In this document: positions 20,502 to 38,783 of the stretch, one piece after another
Position numbering within the stretch: position 1 is the stretch's first letter
Layout of the letters: each line of letters opens with the position of its first letter
Virus record (IMG/VR): IMGVR_UViG_3300018432_000009
Span: 1-45,607 of that record
DNA length: 45,607 bases
Direction: 5' to 3' (one strand)
DNA from: a virus
Translations under genes and position numbers: made by a program
Notes under the pieces: model-generated
What the model was told of the DNA's origin: nothing
What the model saw: only the letters and a program-made list of their open reading frames with translations
Database searches by the model: none

Positions 20502-20890
20502 ACACCTTCACCGAGGTCGCTTACTACGACGCTCGAGACCGCGAGATCCGGGAGCTTTCGCTCCCCATCAACCGCTTCGAGGTCGAGATCCTCATCTCGC
20601 CGCTTCGCCACCTCATCGAGGAGTCGGCCGAGGCGATCGACAAACTGCCTCAGTTCGTGGTCGAGCAGACGCTGCGTCCGATCCGTGACCTGTACGACCG
20701 TCTCGAGGCGTGTCGCGAGCAGTTCATCGCGGACGAGACGGTGAAGGCCGAGCGCGAGTCGGAGATCCGCGCCGAGCGCGAGTCGGAGATCCGCGCCGAG
20801 GTCGACCGTGACGACGCGACGCCAGCCGACGGCACACCCGGTGCAGTCGCCGCGGCGGTCAATGCCGACGGCGACGAGATCCCGTTCTGA
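20498..20890 (+). CDS. Coiled-coil protein with SSB-like C-terminal tip
   Basis: A 130-residue protein. The middle is helical with a duplicated 8-residue unit (AERESEIR twice, ~residues 86-101). A flexible Ala/Asp-rich linker follows, and the last residues are DGDEIPF, very like the SSB tail DVDDIPF encoded at 17424. It may bind proteins that normally recognise the SSB tip. It overlaps parB by 1 bp. Function otherwise unknown. Confidence 0.6.
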   Translation: MNTFTEVAYYDARDREIRELSLPINRFEVEILISPLRHLIEESAEAIDKLPQFVVEQTLRPIRDLYDRLEACREQFIADETVKAERESEIRAERESEIRAEVDRDDATPADGTPGAVAAAVNADGDEIPF

Positions 20891-22383
20891 TGGGCGCCAC
20901 CGCCACCATTCCCCGCGAAAAGTCGGCCGAAACCAACGGCGCGGCGCCGACCTGGAAGCCGGAGCTGCATGACGTGCCGCTCGACGCGATCGACGTCGGC
21001 TCCAATGTGCGCACCGACGTCGCCGGCCTCGACGAGCTGGCCGAGTCGATCCGCAGCGTCGGGATCCTGCAGCCCATCCGCGTCGAGGAGAGCGGCGCCG
21101 GTCGCTACGCGCTGGTGTACGGCCAGCGGCGCCTGGCCGCGGCACGCGAGGCCGGATTGCAGACGATCCCCGCCCTCGTTGACGGGAAGAACCGGACCGG
21201 CACCGTGCTGGTCACCACGCAGCTGGTCGAGAATCTCCAGCGCCACGACCTCAACCCCCTCGAGGAGGCGGCCGGCCTGCGGCTGCTGCTCGACACTGAG
21301 CCGAAGCTCAACCAGGCGGCGCTGGCCAAGCGCATCGGACGCTCGGCGCCGTACGTGTCGAACTCGCTGCGATTGCTCAAGGTGCCGGAGTCGATCAAGG
21401 AGGCCCTGCGCGACGGCCGTCTGAGCGGCACCCACGCCCGAGCGATCGCGTCCCTGCCGCCTGACGAGGCGACGGAGCTCGGCCGGCGCGCGCAGCAGGA
21501 GAAGCTCAGCACCCACGCACTCGAGGCCGAGGTCAGCCGGGCCCAGCAGCGGGCTATGGACGAGGACCGCCGGCGTGACACAGCGGCCAACCGCGACAAG
21601 GAGCTCGTTGCCGGCTGGCTCGCTCAGCTGCTCAAGAAGAAGGCCGACCCCACGACCACCACCCTGGTCGGCTGGGCCGGGACTCCGAGCGATGGCCTCG
21701 AGGCACTGGCCAAGCTGGGGTGGAAGAAGACGAAGTCGGCTTCCCGCGGCCGCGACACGACCTGGACCGATCGCGCCGCCGGCATCTGTGACTGCAACGC
21801 CTACGAGCTGAGCTACAGCCTCACCTACATGAGCGGCCACGAGACGTACAAGCCAAACCTCAAGCCGGCCTGCATCTCCAAGAAGCACCAGGAGGCGGCT
21901 CGGAAGGTCGAGCGTGAGGCCGTCGAGAAGCAGCAGCGTGAGGCGCGTGAGGCGCGGGACGCTGCGTTCGCCGAGCGACAGGCGATCATCGGTCCGCTGG
22001 CCGCAGCCATGACCCCGGCCCTGCCACCAGAGAAGGCAAAGCTCGTGCTGTACACGCTGCTCGCCGGCGACCGTTACGGCAACGGCTTCCACGAGGCGAG
22101 AAGCTGGGCCGAGGACCAGACCGGTGTCGGTCTCGGGTACGGCAACTGGCGGGACGCCGCCTGGAAGCTGATCGACAACCTGGAGCACGGCTCGGCGCTC
22201 GTGAAGATCGGCGAGATCATCGCATCGCGCATCGTGGAGCGGGCCGACGCCGGGGACGGTGGTCTCGCTCGAGCGGCGATCGACGCGTTGGCCGCAGCCG
22301 CTCAACCGACCGCTGACCCGCAGGCCGACGGATCGCTCGAGCCGGCGAAGAGGCCGGCCGCCAAGAAGGCGGCGACGTCGTGA
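20890..22383 (+). CDS. parB: ParB-like DNA-binding protein
   Basis: A 497-residue protein, ATG overlapping the upstream TGA. The N-terminal ParB/Srx domain contains 'NVRTDVAGLDELAESIRSVG', 'ILQPIRVEE' and the CTP-binding-type motif 'YGQRRLAAAREAG' (~residues 77-89). 'TTQLVENLQRHDLNPLEEA' and the HTH 'QAALAKRIGRSAPYVSNSLR' (~142-161) follow, so both nucleotide-sensing and DNA-recognition parts are present. The C-terminal ~250 residues are a lineage-specific Lys/Glu-rich extension. No ParA partner is visible. One of seven parS-like 14-mers lies in codons 7-11 of this gene. Confidence 0.85.
   Translation: MGATATIPREKSAETNGAAPTWKPELHDVPLDAIDVGSNVRTDVAGLDELAESIRSVGILQPIRVEESGAGRYALVYGQRRLAAAREAGLQTIPALVDGKNRTGTVLVTTQLVENLQRHDLNPLEEAAGLRLLLDTEPKLNQAALAKRIGRSAPYVSNSLRLLKVPESIKEALRDGRLSGTHARAIASLPPDEATELGRRAQQEKLSTHALEAEVSRAQQRAMDEDRRRDTAANRDKELVAGWLAQLLKKKADPTTTTLVGWAGTPSDGLEALAKLGWKKTKSASRGRDTTWTDRAAGICDCNAYELSYSLTYMSGHETYKPNLKPACISKKHQEAARKVEREAVEKQQREAREARDAAFAERQAIIGPLAAAMTPALPPEKAKLVLYTLLAGDRYGNGFHEARSWAEDQTGVGLGYGNWRDAAWKLIDNLEHGSALVKIGEIIASRIVERADAGDGGLARAAIDALAAAAQPTADPQADGSLEPAKRPAAKKAATS
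20908..20921. repeat. parS-like site 4, inside parB
   Basis: ATTCCCCGCGAAAA, in codons 7-11 of the ParB-like gene. Chromosomal parS sites are often in or near parB. Confidence 0.55.
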
Positions 22384-23345: not shown

Positions 23346-23634
23346 CCTCGGCCCGCTGGCAACGGCGCTCCAGGGCGCCCTCGACGCCCGGGATGGCCGG
23401 ATCGACTGGTCCGGGGCGTACGACCACGGGCAGCCGCCCAGCGTCGAGCAGATCGCACGGAGCATGGCACCCCGTCTCGAGAAGCTGTTGGTGGAGATCA
23501 TCAACGACCTCGACGAGGAGGAGCCCTTCCTCGACGGCAAGATCGATGACGTCGACCTGTTCGACGCATCACCCCGCAACGTGGCCCGGCGCATCGTCGA
23601 GCGGTTGGCTGGGAAGGATCCGGCCGATGGCTGA
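23338..23634 (+). CDS. Hypothetical acidic protein
   Basis: A 98-residue acidic protein with a conserved-looking helical core ('SVEQIARSMAPRLEKLLVEI') and an Asp/Glu-rich loop. It overlaps the ATPase gene by 8 bp and probably works with it. No family recognised. Confidence 0.6.
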   Translation: MADLGPLATALQGALDARDGRIDWSGAYDHGQPPSVEQIARSMAPRLEKLLVEIINDLDEEEPFLDGKIDDVDLFDASPRNVARRIVERLAGKDPADG

Positions 23635-25375
23635 GCGCCGCCTCCGCATCTCCGACGACCTGGCGCTGCCGCTCGAGTTCGCCACCGAGGGGGTGGCGGT
23701 CATCGGCAAGCGCGGCAGCGGCAAGAGCAATACCGAGGCCCGCTTCGTCGAGCTGCTCTACGAGGCCGCGGTGCCGTTCGCCGTGGTCGACCCCAAGGGC
23801 GACTGGTACGGCATCAAGTCGTCCCGCGACGGCAAGACCCCCGGCCTGTCGGTGCCGGTGTTCGGCGGCCTGTACGGCGACTTCCCGCTCGACGAGCGGA
23901 CCGGTGCGCGGATCGCCGACCTGCTGGTCGACGAGATGCTGTCGGCCGTCCTCGACGTCTCACACCTGTCCAAGACCGGCGGCCTGCCGACCTTCCTCAC
24001 CGCGTTCTGCAACCAGCTCATGCACCGCCACCAGCTCGAGCCGCACGTCCGCACGGTCATCCTCGAGGAGGCCCATCGCTACATCCCGCAGAGCGTGACG
24101 GCCAAGTCGGCGGCGCTCAAGGAGGCTGCCGCTTCCCTCCTCCTGGAGGGGCGAGCGTTCGGCCTCGGCTGTTGGGCGGCCACCCAGCGCCCGGCGCGGC
24201 TCCACAAGGATGTCCTCGAAGAGGTCGGCACGGCGATCATTCACGCGATCGGCGTGAGCGCCACCAACGACAAGCGCACGATCGCCGGCTGGGTCGATCA
24301 CCACGACATGAGCAAAGAGATCGTGGACTCGCTGACCGTCCTGCGGCCAGGCGAGGCGTGGGTGCTCATCCCCCAGGACGGGCTCGTGAAGCGCGTGCAG
24401 ATGCAGCGTCGGACGACATTCGACTCGGCCGCGACGCCGAAGGTCGGCCAGGCCCCCCGCCGGCCGTCGACCATGGCTGACGTCGACCAGGCGGCCATCA
24501 CCCGCGCGCTCACCGACGTGATCGAGCGAGCGAAGCGTGACGACCCGAAGGAGCTGCAGAAGCGGATCGGCGAGCTCGAGCGCGAGCTGGCAGCCAAGCC
24601 GGCCGAGCAGGTCGTCCAGGAGATCGTCAAGGAGATCGAGGTCCCGGTCCTCAACGGCGAGGTCGAGACGCTGCTCGAGGTCGTTGGTCAGTTCCGGATG
24701 ATCGGCGAGAAGATCGCCGACGTCGGCGATCGGGTCGTTGCCGCGATCGACCGTGTCACCAACGCGAAGGCCGTGCCTGCCCGCTCCGCGCCGCCGGTGC
24801 GGCCGGTCGCCGATGTGCAGCGCCGCCCTGTGCCGGAATCGCGGCCGGCGCCCGTGCAGGCCGTCTCAGCGCCTCGGCCGACCGAGGGCGAGACCCGCCT
24901 CAAGGCCGGCGCGCGCCGGATGCTGGTGGCGCTGGCGCAGGTCCATCCGCGGCCGCTGTCACGTCAGCAGCTGAGCTTCCTGGCCGACGTCAAGATCGGC
25001 GGCACCTTCACCGATTACCTGCGCTCGATCGTCGAGGCCGGCTACGCCTTCGAGACCGGCGCCAAGGAGATCGCGCTCACCGACGCCGGCGTCGACCAGG
25101 TGCGCGACCAGGTCGGGGCCGGCGCGCCCGGCCGCGATGAGCTGATCGCCCTCTACTCGCCGCGGCTGAAGGCCGGCGCGCGGCGGATGCTCGAGGTCCT
25201 GCTCGATCGCCATCCGGACACGCTGGCGCGGGCCGAACTGTCCGAGCTGGCTGACGTGCGCATCGGCGGCACGTTCACCGACTACCTCCGCTCGCTGACC
25301 AGCAACCGGCTGGCGGCCGAGGACGTCGGCGGCATCGGACTCTCCGACGAGCTGTTCCTCGGGGAGGGCCGCTGA
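23627..25375 (+). CDS. HerA/DUF87-like ATPase with tandem winged-helix domains
   Basis: A 582-residue protein from ATG 23627. The first ~290 residues form a HerA-type P-loop ATPase: Walker A 'GKRGSGKS' (27-34), 'FAVVDPKGDWYGI', Walker B-type 'VILEEAHRYIP' (~143-153), and 'GCWAATQRPARLHKDV' as the sensor/arginine region. A coiled coil follows (~300-370), then two copies of a winged-helix unit starting 'LKAGARRML' (~425 and ~514), each with 'GGTFTDYLRS'. It is likely a DNA-translocating or DNA-remodelling motor. Confidence 0.75.
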   Translation: MAERRLRISDDLALPLEFATEGVAVIGKRGSGKSNTEARFVELLYEAAVPFAVVDPKGDWYGIKSSRDGKTPGLSVPVFGGLYGDFPLDERTGARIADLLVDEMLSAVLDVSHLSKTGGLPTFLTAFCNQLMHRHQLEPHVRTVILEEAHRYIPQSVTAKSAALKEAAASLLLEGRAFGLGCWAATQRPARLHKDVLEEVGTAIIHAIGVSATNDKRTIAGWVDHHDMSKEIVDSLTVLRPGEAWVLIPQDGLVKRVQMQRRTTFDSAATPKVGQAPRRPSTMADVDQAAITRALTDVIERAKRDDPKELQKRIGELERELAAKPAEQVVQEIVKEIEVPVLNGEVETLLEVVGQFRMIGEKIADVGDRVVAAIDRVTNAKAVPARSAPPVRPVADVQRRPVPESRPAPVQAVSAPRPTEGETRLKAGARRMLVALAQVHPRPLSRQQLSFLADVKIGGTFTDYLRSIVEAGYAFETGAKEIALTDAGVDQVRDQVGAGAPGRDELIALYSPRLKAGARRMLEVLLDRHPDTLARAELSELADVRIGGTFTDYLRSLTSNRLAAEDVGGIGLSDELFLGEGR

Positions 25376-26219: not shown

Positions 26220-27491
26220 ATGTCCACGCCCGAGCAGCCCTCGATCCCCGTGCGCCCGCGACGCCGGCGACCGACGGCCGCTGCACCGCCGGCGGAGACG
26301 AACGGCATCCACCCGCCCGAGGAGCCGCTGGACTTCTCGACGCCGGACGACCTGCGCCGCCTGACGCGCGCGATCGAGGAGCTGCATGCGTCGACGCGAG
26401 CGATGCAGCTGCCGCCGATCCGGGTCGAGTGGGAGCCGGGGCAGGAGGATGCCAGCCGGATCGACCCCGAGAAGCTGGCGCTGCAGGCCCACGCCACCGA
26501 CCTCCTGGCCGACTACGAGGGCTACGTGGCCGGGCCGATCCCCGACGTGGTGGCCGACATCCGGGCGCCGGCGGATCCCGATGCCTGGATGATCGAGGGC
26601 TTCTGCCGCCCGGGCACGCTGGTCATGGTGGCCGGGTCGGCCGGCGTCGCCAAGAGCTGGATCATCCGCCAGCTGGCGATCTCGGGATCGACGGGGCAGG
26701 ACCTGTTCCTGGACCGCTACCCGATCACGCGTCGGCTGAACGTGCTGGTGGTCGACGAGGACAACGGCGCCAACGAGGAGTGGCGGCGCGACGAGAAGCT
26801 GCTCGCCTTCCTCGACCTGCCGCGCGACCGGCTGGGCAGCTATCGCCGCATCAGCCTGGCCGGCGTGCTGCTCGACCAGGAGGCCTGGCAGCGCTGGCTG
26901 CGCGGCGCCATCCGGACCTGGGACATCGACCTGGTCATCCTCGACCCGATCTCCGAGATGTACGCCGGCAAGGAGCTGCGCGAGGATCCCGCATTCCGCT
27001 CGGTGCTGAGCTTCCTGAAGAAGCTGAAGGTCGACTTCCCGGCCACCACCACCGTTGCCGTGCACCACACCCGCAAGCGCGACGCGAAGGACAAGGGCCC
27101 GGCCGGTCTCGAGGAGCTCCGCGGCCAGTGGGGCCAGACGCCGGACGTGGTGGCCATGGTGAGCTCGCTGGCCGATCGCCGCAGCCGCTGGGAGATCTTC
27201 AAGCGCGCACCGCACTCGATGCTCTACCTCGAGCAGGCCGAATCGGGCGGCATGACCACCGTGGCCGACAGCTCGACGGCGGTCGACATGCGCATGGCCA
27301 CCGACCACAAGGTGCTGGCCGCGATCGACGCCGGCGCGAGCACCGTCAAGGAGATCCAGCTGGCCTCTGGCCTGTCCTCCTCGGGCACCTACAAGACCCT
27401 GGAGCGGCTCCACGGAGCCGGCCTCATCACCCGCCGACCGCCCTACGAACGGCTGGTCGACCCCACCGACGACCCACTGGAGGAATCATGA
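26220..27491 (+). CDS. RepA-like RecA-fold ATPase (AAA_25), putative replicative helicase or loader
   Basis: A 423-residue protein starting one base after the previous stop. An N-terminal Pro/Arg-rich segment precedes a RecA-type core: Walker A 'GSAGVAKS' (~139-146), 'VLVVDEDNGANEEWRRDEKL', Walker B 'DLVILDPISEMYAG' (~238) and 'TTVAVHHTRKRDAKDKG' (~279-295), the set seen in RSF1010 RepA-type hexameric helicases and related AAA_25 proteins. The C-terminal ~60 residues form a winged helix ('STVKEIQLASGLSSSGTYKT'). Iteron-like repeats and a hairpin start 3 bp past its stop, so it probably acts at that origin. Confidence 0.75.
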   Translation: MSTPEQPSIPVRPRRRRPTAAAPPAETNGIHPPEEPLDFSTPDDLRRLTRAIEELHASTRAMQLPPIRVEWEPGQEDASRIDPEKLALQAHATDLLADYEGYVAGPIPDVVADIRAPADPDAWMIEGFCRPGTLVMVAGSAGVAKSWIIRQLAISGSTGQDLFLDRYPITRRLNVLVVDEDNGANEEWRRDEKLLAFLDLPRDRLGSYRRISLAGVLLDQEAWQRWLRGAIRTWDIDLVILDPISEMYAGKELREDPAFRSVLSFLKKLKVDFPATTTVAVHHTRKRDAKDKGPAGLEELRGQWGQTPDVVAMVSSLADRRSRWEIFKRAPHSMLYLEQAESGGMTTVADSSTAVDMRMATDHKVLAAIDAGASTVKEIQLASGLSSSGTYKTLERLHGAGLITRRPPYERLVDPTDDPLEES

Positions 27492-27748
27492 CGCCGTGGA
27501 ATAACCGTGGAAAATCCGTGGAATCGCCACTCTTCCACGGAGGGCTCTCTCTTACAGAGAGCCCGATGAGTGGAACGTGGAATCCGGCCGTGGACGTGGA
27601 ACGTGGAGAGAATCGGCGTGGAGCCGACCCCGAGCCACCTACCACCGACGAGCCCCTGGCTGAGCCGATCGAGATCGTCGAGGTCACCCCGGACGCCATC
27701 GCTGTCGACGGGGCGGACGACGAGCCGGCGGAGGGCGACGATGCCTGA
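27488..27748 (+). CDS. Small acidic protein over the iteron region
   Basis: An 86-residue reading frame, ATGA overlap at the start and 8-bp overlap at the end. The N-terminal ~45 residues are encoded by the iteron and hairpin DNA and look unstructured. The C-terminal half is strongly acidic ('LAEPIEIVEVTPDAIAVDGA' and then D/E-rich). A start at ATG 27566 is also possible. Coding is less certain here because repeated DNA constrains the sequence. Confidence 0.45.
   Translation: MTPWNNRGKSVESPLFHGGLSLTESPMSGTWNPAVDVERGENRRGADPEPPTTDEPLAEPIEIVEVTPDAIAVDGADDEPAEGDDA
27494..27623. other. Candidate replication origin with iterons and hairpin
   Basis: CCGTGGAA occurs at 27494, 27505 and 27516 with exact 11-bp spacing, and inverted (TTCCACGG) at 27533-27540. 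A perfect hairpin GGGCTCTCT-cttac-AGAGAGCCC (27542-27564) follows. Five more CGTGGA-core units lie at 27575, 27588, 27594, 27601 and 27616. The cluster adjoins the RepA-like ATPase and contains AT-rich spacers, the usual make-up of an iteron origin. Host initiator boxes (TTATNCACA) were not seen. Confidence 0.65.
27542..27564. repeat. Hairpin inside the candidate origin
   Basis: Perfect 9-bp inverted repeat GGGCTCTCT / AGAGAGCCC with a 5-base loop (CTTAC). It separates the left iteron group from the right one. Confidence 0.7.
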
Positions 27749-28367
27749 GCATCCGCTGGCCGATCCCATTCGGCGTGGCACGGTCCGGCTGGCCCGGCTG
27801 CTGTTCGGCGATGACGGGCTGTTCGGGATGCCGCCCGCCGCCGAGCAGCCGGTGGCCGACGCCGCGGCCCCTCCAGCCCGTGACCAGTCCGAGGCCGAGC
27901 TCGACTCGCACGAAGCATTGCGCCGCAGCCCGTTGCACGAGTGCGGTGCGGACTGTCCGCTGCCGAGGTCGATGGTCGAGCGGTTCGATCGCTACGAGGT
28001 CGATGGTCTCAGCGCCGCCGAGATGCGACGCCGCGAGAACATGAACCCGGCGCCCGGCGACCGGCGGCCGCGCTCGGTGATCCGTGGCGACGGGTCGATG
28101 GTCGTCGTGCGCGACGTTGGGCGTGTCCCGAACATGGGCAGCGAGAACATCGAGTCGTTCCGGATCCCGCCGTGGGTAGTCGAGGCGATCCGGCCCGGAG
28201 GCCGGAACGAGGTCGAGCGGATGGCTCGCCTCGTCATCAGGGCCTACGTTCGCGGCTTCGGCGTCGGCCGCCACACCGAGGCACCGCCTAACCCGACGGC
28301 CGCCGTCGATGACCTTGTTCCGGGCGCTCGGTTGGGTCCGATCGACATCCCCGAGGCGCACCTGTGA
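27741..28367 (+). CDS. Hypothetical protein
   Basis: A 208-residue protein with an 8-bp overlap upstream. It has an Ala/Pro-rich linker, a Cys/His pair region ('PLHECGADCPLP'), a predicted helical unit ('MVERFDRYEVDGLSAAEMRR') and a C-terminal alpha/beta part ('PPWVVEAIRPGGRNEVERMA'). No family recognised. Confidence 0.55.
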   Translation: MPEHPLADPIRRGTVRLARLLFGDDGLFGMPPAAEQPVADAAAPPARDQSEAELDSHEALRRSPLHECGADCPLPRSMVERFDRYEVDGLSAAEMRRRENMNPAPGDRRPRSVIRGDGSMVVVRDVGRVPNMGSENIESFRIPPWVVEAIRPGGRNEVERMARLVIRAYVRGFGVGRHTEAPPNPTAAVDDLVPGARLGPIDIPEAHL

Positions 28368-36333: not shown

Positions 36334-37203
36334 GTGACCACAAGCACTCGCACGCCCGCGCAGGCGGCAGGAGCCGGGGCTCGGGGCGGAGCCCCGGCAT
36401 CGCCGCACCCGTCGAAGTCGTCGTCGCAGCCAGGCGTCGCCGTCGAGCGAGAGACGTCGGGCGGCACCAAGCCGCGCAGCCGGACCAAAGCGGGTACCGG
36501 GTCGACGACTGCGGCCCTTGCCGCACGGAAGGCCCAGGTCGGCATCTTCAAGCCGCTGGTGCACTGCGGCGCGCACGTCCGGCAATGCCCGACCTGCTCC
36601 ACCCCGAAGAAGCCCGTCCACTGGAAGGGCTGCCCGCACGCGCATGACACGGCGGCCTGTCGAGACGGGGCGCACCTGTGCAAGCTCGGCAAGGGCTGGG
36701 GCACCGATCACGTCGGCTCCGGCCACTGCAAGCTGGCCGGCCACGGCGGCAGCTCGCCCAACGGGAAGCGCCATGCGGCCAAGGAGGCAGCCACGAAGGC
36801 GCTCGAGCGACTCGGCCAGCCGGCCGGATCCGGATCACCGCTGCAGCTGCTCGAGCAGGCGGTGCGCTACGCCCAGGGCAACCTCGAGGCCTCGGCGGCG
36901 CTGCTCGTCGAGATCGCCAAGGCCGATGGCCCGAAGGAGCCGGATCGCCTGGTCATCGACGCCGCGCGCGAGATCTTCACCGCGGCCATCCGGCTCGCCG
37001 GGCGGGTCGGCAAGGAGGCTGCCGACGCTCACATCGCCGAGCGGCGGGCGACGATCGACGAGATGATCGTCAGCCTGCTCGAGCGGGTCCTGCTGGCCGG
37101 CCTCGACGAGCTGGGGCTCAGCGACGACCAGCGGGAAACCGCGCTGTCACGTATGCACCGGGAGCTGGTTGCGGTACTGCCCGAACCATCCGAGCTCAGC
37201 TGA
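36334..37203 (+). CDS. Terminase small subunit-like protein with zinc motif
   Basis: A 289-residue protein, GTG start, upstream of terL. The N-terminal ~70 residues are disordered. Then 'CGAHVRQCPTCSTPKKPVHW' and the hallmark 'CKLGKGWGTDHVGSGHCKLA' followed by GHGG, a C-x-GWGTDH-x-G-x-G-x-CKL-x-GHGG motif typical of small terminases of this phage group. Helices follow for oligomerisation. It would bind the packaging site and hand DNA to the large subunit. The extra Cys pairs before the motif are unusual. Confidence 0.8.
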   Translation: MTTSTRTPAQAAGAGARGGAPASPHPSKSSSQPGVAVERETSGGTKPRSRTKAGTGSTTAALAARKAQVGIFKPLVHCGAHVRQCPTCSTPKKPVHWKGCPHAHDTAACRDGAHLCKLGKGWGTDHVGSGHCKLAGHGGSSPNGKRHAAKEAATKALERLGQPAGSGSPLQLLEQAVRYAQGNLEASAALLVEIAKADGPKEPDRLVIDAAREIFTAAIRLAGRVGKEAADAHIAERRATIDEMIVSLLERVLLAGLDELGLSDDQRETALSRMHRELVAVLPEPSELS

Positions 37204-38783
37204 TGGTCGTACCGGCCCTGAGCCCCGGCAGTGCGTCGATCGTCGAGCGCCTGGCCGCCCGCCTGGATCCAGCACCCAGCCCGTATACCGCCGATCCGGT
37301 CGGCTGGGTGCAGAACCGCCTCCTCGAGTTCATCTGGTCGAAGCAGCGCGCCATCCTCGAGTCGGTCGTTCGCAACCCGCGCACCGGCGTGCCGGCCTGC
37401 CACGACTCGGGCAAGAGCTTCATCGCGGCGCGCGCCGCGGCGTGGTGGCTCGACACCCATCGCGCCGGCGAGGCTTTTGTCGTCACCACGGCGCCGACCT
37501 TCAGCCAGGTGCGGGCGATCTTGTGGCGCGAGATCGGAAAGGCGCATCGCAAGGGCCAGCTCAGCGGCCGCGTCAACCAGACCGAGTGGCTGATCGATCG
37601 CACCGGCCGCCACTACACCTCGGCCGCGCCGCAGGAGGAGCTGGTGGCCATCGGCCGCAAGCCGTCCGAGTACGACCAGGCCGCCTTCCAGGGGATCCAC
37701 GCTCGCTACGTGCTGGTCATCATCGACGAGGCCGACGGCGTCGCCGGCGAGCTGTTCGACGCGGCCGAGACGCTGGCCACCAACGAGCACGCGCGGATCC
37801 TGGCCATCGGCAACCCGGTCGACCCGACGTCGGCCTTCGCCAGCGCCGTGCGGCTGCCGGCGACGATCGACCCTGACTCGGGGGCAGCCGACGAGTTCGA
37901 TTCGCCGTCGGGCTGGCACGTCGTCCGGATCGACGGATACGACACGCCGAACTTCACGAAGGAGCCGGTGCCCGACGAGCTGCGCGACATGCTCCTCTCG
38001 CCGGCGTGGGTCGAGTCGATGGTCACCAAGTTCGGCGCCGGCTCATCGTGGGTCGTCGGCCGGATCCGTGGCCGTCACCCGATCGACTCCGAGGACGGTG
38101 TGATCCCCGGCTCCAAGATCCGCGCCTGCCGCCACCTCGACGACGACGGCACCCCATTTCCCGCGGAAAGCCTGTGGGACGCGGAGCAGCTGCTGCCGAT
38201 CGAGCTCGGCGTCGACGTCGGCGCCGGCGGCGACCAGAGCGTGGTGCGCGAGCGGCGCGGGATCCGGACCGGCCGCGTCTGGCGGCAGCGATCGCCAGAC
38301 ACCATGGACCTGGTCGACCTAGTGCTGGCCGCGATCCTGGTCACCGGTGCCACGGCGGTCAAGATCGACACGGTCGGCATCGGCAAGGGCGCCGGTGATC
38401 GCCTCGAGCAGCTGCGCCGGCAGGGCCGCCACACCGCACGAATCATCCCGGTCAACGTCGGCGAGCGGGCGCTGGCGCCGGCCCAGTACGTCCGCCTGCG
38501 CGACCAGATCTGGTGGGAGGTCGGCCGCGGGCTGATCGAGGATGGGGCGCTCGACTTGTCCGAGCTCGACGAGGAGACGTTCACCGACCTCACCGCCCCG
38601 CGGCTGATGCCACCGGATGCAGCCAACCGGATCCAGGTCGAGCCCAAGAAGGAGACCCGCAAGCGCATCGGTCGATCGCCCGACGATGCCGACGCGTGGC
38701 TGCTCGCCTACCTCGCCATTCGCCCACAGCCCCAGGAGGGATACGTCGTGCACGACCAGCAGGTCCGAGTGAGCCCGTACTGA
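37203..38783 (+). CDS. terL: Terminase large subunit
   Basis: A 526-residue protein, ATG overlapping the previous TGA. The ATPase domain has Walker A-like 'ACHDSGKS' (~65-72) and Walker B 'VLVIIDEADGV' (~170-180). The nuclease domain begins 'IELGVDVGAGGDQSVV' (~332-347) and has a later Asp pair in 'SPDDADAWLLAYLA' (~492). It powers DNA packaging into the prohead and cuts the concatemer. The parS-like ATTTCCCGCGGAAA (38156-38169) lies in its coding sequence. Confidence 0.92.
   Translation: MVVPALSPGSASIVERLAARLDPAPSPYTADPVGWVQNRLLEFIWSKQRAILESVVRNPRTGVPACHDSGKSFIAARAAAWWLDTHRAGEAFVVTTAPTFSQVRAILWREIGKAHRKGQLSGRVNQTEWLIDRTGRHYTSAAPQEELVAIGRKPSEYDQAAFQGIHARYVLVIIDEADGVAGELFDAAETLATNEHARILAIGNPVDPTSAFASAVRLPATIDPDSGAADEFDSPSGWHVVRIDGYDTPNFTKEPVPDELRDMLLSPAWVESMVTKFGAGSSWVVGRIRGRHPIDSEDGVIPGSKIRACRHLDDDGTPFPAESLWDAEQLLPIELGVDVGAGGDQSVVRERRGIRTGRVWRQRSPDTMDLVDLVLAAILVTGATAVKIDTVGIGKGAGDRLEQLRRQGRHTARIIPVNVGERALAPAQYVRLRDQIWWEVGRGLIEDGALDLSELDEETFTDLTAPRLMPPDAANRIQVEPKKETRKRIGRSPDDADAWLLAYLAIRPQPQEGYVVHDQQVRVSPY
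38156..38169. repeat. parS-like site 6
   Basis: ATTTCCCGCGGAAA inside terL, in a third codon phase (encodes P-F-P-A-E). Confidence 0.55.

Follow-up and report, generated by a model that had tools for sequence, protein, structure and literature searches.

Iteron plasmids such as P1 and R6K, which use Rep_3 initiators, carry direct repeats spaced approximately one or two helical turns apart beside the rep gene. In the SaPI/PICI elements, the C-terminal domain of the Rep protein recognizes iterons located directly 3′ of its own gene, and the origin consists of two iteron sets that flank a middle element (PMC7581432, PMC6092414). Plasmid RSF1010 divides the work between two proteins, RepC binding the iterons and RepA unwinding the DNA, and its origin contains both iterons and the hairpins ssiA and ssiB (PMC4234260). 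The alpha protein of P4 binds its origin repeats through a winged helix, and the archaeal plasmid pRN1 encodes ORF904, a protein with a C-terminal winged helix, its origin being a stem-loop 3′ of the gene (PMC4234260).

The DNA analyzed here (the window) is the whole of a 45.6-kb virus record from a temperate tailed phage, which encodes a tape measure, a portal, head proteins, a terminase, and a serine integrase. Immediately after a helicase gene lies a cluster of repeats of approximately 130 bp which, with a probability of about 0.68, serves as the replication origin of this phage and is bound by the helicase's own C-terminal helix-turn-helix (HTH) domain. The features of the region are as follows.

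26220..27491, plus strand: gene for an RSF1010 RepA-type (AAA_25) helicase/ATPase of 423 aa (Pfam AAA_25, 1.6e-21)
27303..27440, plus strand: C-terminal HTH/winged-helix-like domain of the helicase, aa 362-407, the proposed iteron binder (weak Pfam matches, AF2 model)
27484..27613, no strand: 130-bp stretch ranking second in the phage for AT content (GC 0.55, mean 0.70); possible melting region
27488..27748, plus strand: 86-aa ORF whose ATGA start overlaps the helicase stop (judged by GC at codon positions)
27494..27523, plus strand: three direct iterons, CCGTGGAA, at 27494, 27505, and 27516, in exact 11-bp steps
27533..27540, minus strand: inverted iteron
27542..27564, no strand: perfect 9-bp hairpin, GGGCTCTCT-CTTAC-AGAGAGCCC, with a 5-nt loop
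27576..27622, plus strand: second set of five CGTGGA units at 27576, 27589, 27595, 27602, and 27617, irregularly spaced
27741..28367, plus strand: next gene of the operon, 208 aa, no PHROG match

Elsewhere in the window, a 660-aa ATPase (23393-25375) matches the PHROGs terminase large subunit (3.8e-15) and Pfam HerA, and a separate terminase candidate is found at 36678-38783 (phrog_2, 1.7e-23).

Within 27494-27622, the cluster comprises eight CGTGGA units in direct orientation, one in inverted orientation, and a hairpin with a perfect 9-bp stem. The original prediction of three CCGTGGAA units at exactly 11 bp, an inverted copy, a perfect 9-bp hairpin, and five more CGTGGA units is borne out in each of these elements, and the cluster does adjoin the RepA-like gene; the distance had been put at 3 bp, whereas the helicase stop ends at 27491 and 2 bp separate it from the first unit. 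CCGTGGAA occurs five times in the window, where 1.15 occurrences are expected, a number reached in none of 100 shuffles, and nowhere else in the 45.6 kb do three copies of a 7-mer follow one another at a constant interval of 9-23 bp. None of 40 shuffles produced three copies of an 8-mer spaced by 11 bp, and the six copies of CGTGGAA within 300 bp 3′ of the helicase gene were matched by none of 300. Across the window as a whole, CGTGGA by itself shows no enrichment (38 versus 39.5 expected), and its density of nine in 128 bp is slightly greater than that of the best 6-mer cluster of the shuffles (eight). The signal is carried by the regular spacing and the local clustering.

Missed in the first reading of the sequence was a further perfect inverted repeat of 9 bp, made up of units 3 and 4 (27515-27541, 9-nt loop), which ends directly before the hairpin at 27542-27564. 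As a result of this pairing, two of the only six perfect hairpins of at least 9 bp in the window stand side by side in the cluster. The hairpins of the cluster are stable by computation; no T-tract follows the one at 27542-27564, which is therefore not a typical terminator, and Rfam and tRNA scans gave no match. The AT-rich stretch coincides with the first iteron set and not with the interval between the sets. The 130 bp with the highest AT content in the phage (31514-31643) are found directly before the serine integrase gene (31672), and could be an attachment site. GC skew, which had been put forward as a check on the origin, gave no clear backing to one: the curve dips only slightly near 27.5 kb, to a local minimum, while the window minimum falls at 44.7 kb; it makes no origin-like turn and speaks neither for nor against an origin.

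Two relatives of the helicase are found in IMG/VR, L001 (52% identical) and L002 (47%). Further searches of IMG/VR, with an alignment or with single queries, returned only the same two contigs, and two genome-collection scans revealed no cellular relatives. Both show the same layout: three units spaced by 11 bp, then one in inverted orientation, a perfect hairpin, and additional units. In L002, the cluster occupies the same place 3′ of the helicase gene and, as in the window, its first unit begins 6 nt downstream of the ATG in an ATGA overlap. Its word is different, with three GGCGGAA at 11 bp followed by inverted TTCC units and more units, as is the stem of its hairpin, GGTCCCCCC-CCTTTA-GGGGGGACC (9-bp stem, 6-nt loop), which stands between the unit sets; the layout is kept. 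No repeats are found 3′ of the L001 helicase gene; a whole-contig scan located the cluster approximately 14 kb from that gene (L126 2086-2240, minus strand), a separation that fits what is expected of a movable DNA site. There, CGTGGAC, CGTGGAC, and CGTAGAC follow one another at exact 11-bp steps, succeeded by an inverted unit, the hairpin GGTGGACCC-TAATA-GGGTCCACC at the same place in the layout, and more units. Nine near-matches fall within 170 bp, the next best place in 39 kb having five. The cluster is flanked on one side by an HNH-like ORF that partly covers it and on the other by a terminase-small-like ORF, both named by eye from their translations. The same phage possesses a tandem array of TGGCGT hexamers (L126 6488-6540), which is unrelated to the iterons.

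In both the window and L001, 58-59 bp separate the first unit from the centre of the hairpin; in L002, the distance is about 77 bp. The HTH of L001 is 57% identical to that of the window and its cluster keeps the word CGTGGA, while the HTH of L002 is 37% identical and its cluster uses another word; since IMG/VR contains just three members of the helicase family, HTH and motif are linked by three data points, and coevolution of the two is thus unproven. An iteron-type origin beside a RepA-like ATPase, as originally predicted, is still the best reading, and sequence comparison now backs it, since the layout is conserved in both relatives, the motif has changed in one, and the site has moved in the other.

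Similar arrangements recur in other phages. In exact scans of IMG/VR, 9 stretches contained GTGGAA-type triplets with 11-bp spacing; for GCGGAA, triplets were present in 102 stretches (69 sequence groups) when spaced at 11 bp and in 5 when spaced at 13 bp. Several of the GCGGAA triplets immediately follow the 3′ end of a phage helicase gene, and three helicase types are represented; the helicases near triplets include AAA_25 (the L030 family, L034, L072, and L002), VapE (L007, L013, and L054), and D5/DUF5906 (L022, L045, L073, and L093). As a raw count, a helicase was recognized within 3 kb in only 13 of the 69 GCGGAA groups, with ten query proteins drawn mostly from the triplet set itself. 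The fullest parallel is the L030 family, with CTAATGCGGAA at 11 bp, an inverted unit, a 12-bp stem-loop, and a second iteron set. Six named phages were chosen by protein similarity to L030, L034, and L072, and not by their repeats. In three of them, a significant cluster of repeats follows immediately 3′ of the AAA_25 gene, and the word differs from phage to phage: GTTCCCA in RHph_Y3_1, GACTGGC in Mae-Yong1326-1, and ATCTCCG in isolate ctjtQ328. Repeats are absent from that position in the other three, namely Wolbachia WO, RHph_X2_26, and Mae-JY30. The helicase of ctjtQ328 is 52.6% identical to that of L030, so that helicase and 3′ position are kept and the word is changed.

Several further arrays were noted in the course of these scans. 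A candidate origin in Microcystis phage Mae-Yong1326-1 (L122) is a perfect 23-bp stem accompanied by GACTGGCGCAA units; it lies 3′ of the AAA_25 gene, some 210-270 bases beyond the stop of the helicase at 2637. Arrays of CGTGGAA are found just past the 3′ ends of VapE-type helicase genes (L013 5866-6396 and L007 2946-4295, both minus strand), which suggests that VapE phages have the same kind of origin. Long regular CATTCGTGGAA arrays at 11 bp are located at L010 1322-1415 and L014 11168-11228 (minus strand); these two arrays share a contig, and no helicase was recognized near them. In L063, L087, and L099, GCGGAA triplets follow 167 bp after a gene whose C-terminus is identical in the three contigs; its product, which had no Pfam match when tested in L087, is possibly an unrecognized initiator.

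With regard to the protein, the AAA_25 match of the helicase scores 77 bits against a cut-off of 27 bits, and the best solved relative of a profile built from eight phage AAA_25 helicases is RSF1010 RepA (1g8y, 4.6e-25). P0001 had no match in the PDB or among plasmids. No fused primase domain was recognized in the 423-aa helicase, and Pfam revealed neither a D5/DUF927/VapE domain nor a Rep_3 domain; the protein is an ATPase. The description "RepA-like" thus holds in the sense of an RSF1010 RepA/AAA_25 helicase of RecA fold, not in that of an iteron-binding plasmid initiator of the Rep_3 type. Residues 362-407 give weak matches to MarR_2, TrmB, and IclR, all below the Pfam cut-offs, and the AF2 model of the C-terminal domain reveals a three-helix HTH core (pLDDT 74.5); the model of the whole protein was discarded (pLDDT 45). 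Foldseek returned no match to the HTH domain at E ≤ 0.001, and HTH/winged-helix domains were among its top matches. The likely binder of the iterons is this HTH, fused to the helicase.

We therefore propose the following course of events. The 130-bp cluster would be the cis-acting DNA site of the origin. The AAA_25 helicase, produced from the gene directly upstream, would use its C-terminal HTH to bind the phased CGTGGA(A) iterons and assemble there on one face of the helix. It would then melt the AT-rich first iteron set and load itself as a ring. The hairpin between the iteron sets, exposed when the strands part, may act as a priming or loading site in the manner of ssiA and ssiB of RSF1010.

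The main rival to this proposal retains the site as an origin, with a separate small HTH protein binding the iterons and then recruiting the RepA-type helicase. RSF1010, where iteron binding falls to RepC and RepA is confined to unwinding (PMC4234260, PMC8965321), is a precedent, and several unannotated small proteins are encoded near the cluster; we nevertheless judge it unlikely, if worth keeping in mind, given that the helicase possesses a C-terminal HTH which both relatives have kept, and that the clusters adjoin helicases of three types. Among the neighboring proteins scanned (a subset of the small ORFs), neither a separate RepC iteron binder nor a RepB′-like primase was recognized.

The phage that encodes the serine integrase also encodes a ParB-like protein (20890-22383; HTH_ParB 2e-23, ParB_N 2.6e-16), a 45% identical relative of which is present in the phage of L002, with none found in that of L001. 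As the window and L002 both encode ParB, another possible binder of the repeats, the latter might constitute a centromere (parS), for which there is a mycobacteriophage precedent (PMC7157519). However, the 39-kb record of L001 has the same type of cluster and no ParB_N match, as is also true for two further iteron-bearing records, although all of these may be incomplete; moreover, the serine integrase means that the window phage does not require plasmid maintenance. A centromere is, in our opinion, improbable.

The origin proposal must also be weighed against the ORF overlapping the helicase stop (ATGA), which runs through the repeats in the window and in L002. Together with the stable hairpins, it could indicate that the segment works as mRNA or protein, be it a coupled leader, an attenuator, or a repeat-containing small protein. 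GC by codon position in 27488-27622 is 0.60/0.56/0.58, compared with about 0.70/0.50/0.90 in genes; this non-coding-like composition upholds the extent originally given to the element. The repeat half of the ORF has no codon signature, whereas the second half (27623-27745) has one (0.85/0.46/0.88), and the start of a small gene may lie within the second iteron set or beyond it. The 86-aa product has no Pfam or PHROG match, and the peptide was rejected as a conserved gene, being absent from the relatives in a search without a positive control. A coding repeat or attenuator was likewise rejected, on the codon signature and the relocation of the L001 element by some 14 kb, and the main hairpin lacks a T-tract; a role as mRNA or protein is accordingly quite improbable. 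Operators and the arm sites of excisionases and integrases typically consist of short direct and inverted repeats, but a regulatory site for a repressor, excisionase, or integrase in place of an origin is the least probable explanation of all, as the cluster is part of an operon whose genes share one strand, the integrase gene is 4 kb away, clusters of this kind are found again next to replicative helicases, and no promoter-like site was found within 27200-28000 (a weak test for this type of genome).

Counted against the origin reading are the sub-cut-off HTH matches and the fold search without a significant match, the three of six named phages without repeats, the GC skew, the ParB gene, the three-member family behind the link of HTH and motif, and the 13 of 69 GCGGAA groups as the only ones with a recognized helicase within 3 kb. 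More tentatively, and at somewhat less than even odds, AAA_25 helicases with a C-terminal HTH may represent widespread and undescribed self-recruiting phage initiators, each with its own 11-bp-phased iterons beside a priming or loading hairpin, in which the site is movable and the word can be swapped with the HTH, a GGAA-cored 11-bp site being common to the otherwise unrelated VapE and D5 helicases. No paper linking AAA_25 or vapE to iterons was found in the literature, from which subscription journals were mostly excluded. If true, one protein in full-size phages does the two-protein job of RSF1010, finding as well as unwinding the origin. A rule for recognizing origins in the many environmental phages for which none is known (3′ of a helicase, phased repeats, hairpin, second set) would follow, the published statement (2018) that a helicase followed by two iteron sets is exclusive to PICIs would be contradicted, and natural pairs of HTH and DNA word would become usable for orthogonal replicons in laboratory strains.

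By comparison with the known systems, the cluster shares with the iteron plasmids P1 and R6K the phased direct repeats beside the gene for a replication protein; their Rep_3 initiators, unlike the present helicase, are not ATPases. The original appeal to iteron plasmids is thus sound for the iterons but not for a classical iteron plasmid; because the likely binder is an HTH fused to the helicase, the closest model is the self-loading helicase with a 3′ origin of the SaPIs and PICIs. As in the SaPI/PICI Rep-ori system, and in SCCmec Cch2 with its putative origin, two sets of iterons lie directly 3′ of the helicase gene, a position found in the window (at 2 bp) and L002, but not in L001. Here, however, the helicase is of the RepA/AAA_25 and not the SaPI Rep/D5-related class, the sets are separated by a hairpin instead of by an AT-rich stretch alone, and the carrier has a full complement of phage head and tail genes. 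The helicase was tested for its class and does not belong to that of the PICIs, which sets the cluster apart from the PICI type. With RSF1010 oriV and its RepA-RepB′-RepC proteins it has in common a homologous helicase domain (1g8y), including the RecA-fold ATPase domain of the RepA (AAA_25) family, and iterons plus hairpins; RSF1010 differs in having RepC as a separate binder where the HTH is here fused to the helicase, and no RepB′-like primase was identified in the present case. P4 alpha and pRN1 ORF904 likewise carry a winged-helix origin-binding domain on the helicase (predicted in ours), but their helicases are of other types, fused to primases (SF3 in pRN1), and pRN1 has no iterons. The present system would work like the SaPI/P4/pRN1 group but has the helicase type of RSF1010; it is a variant, and not a member of the PICIs.
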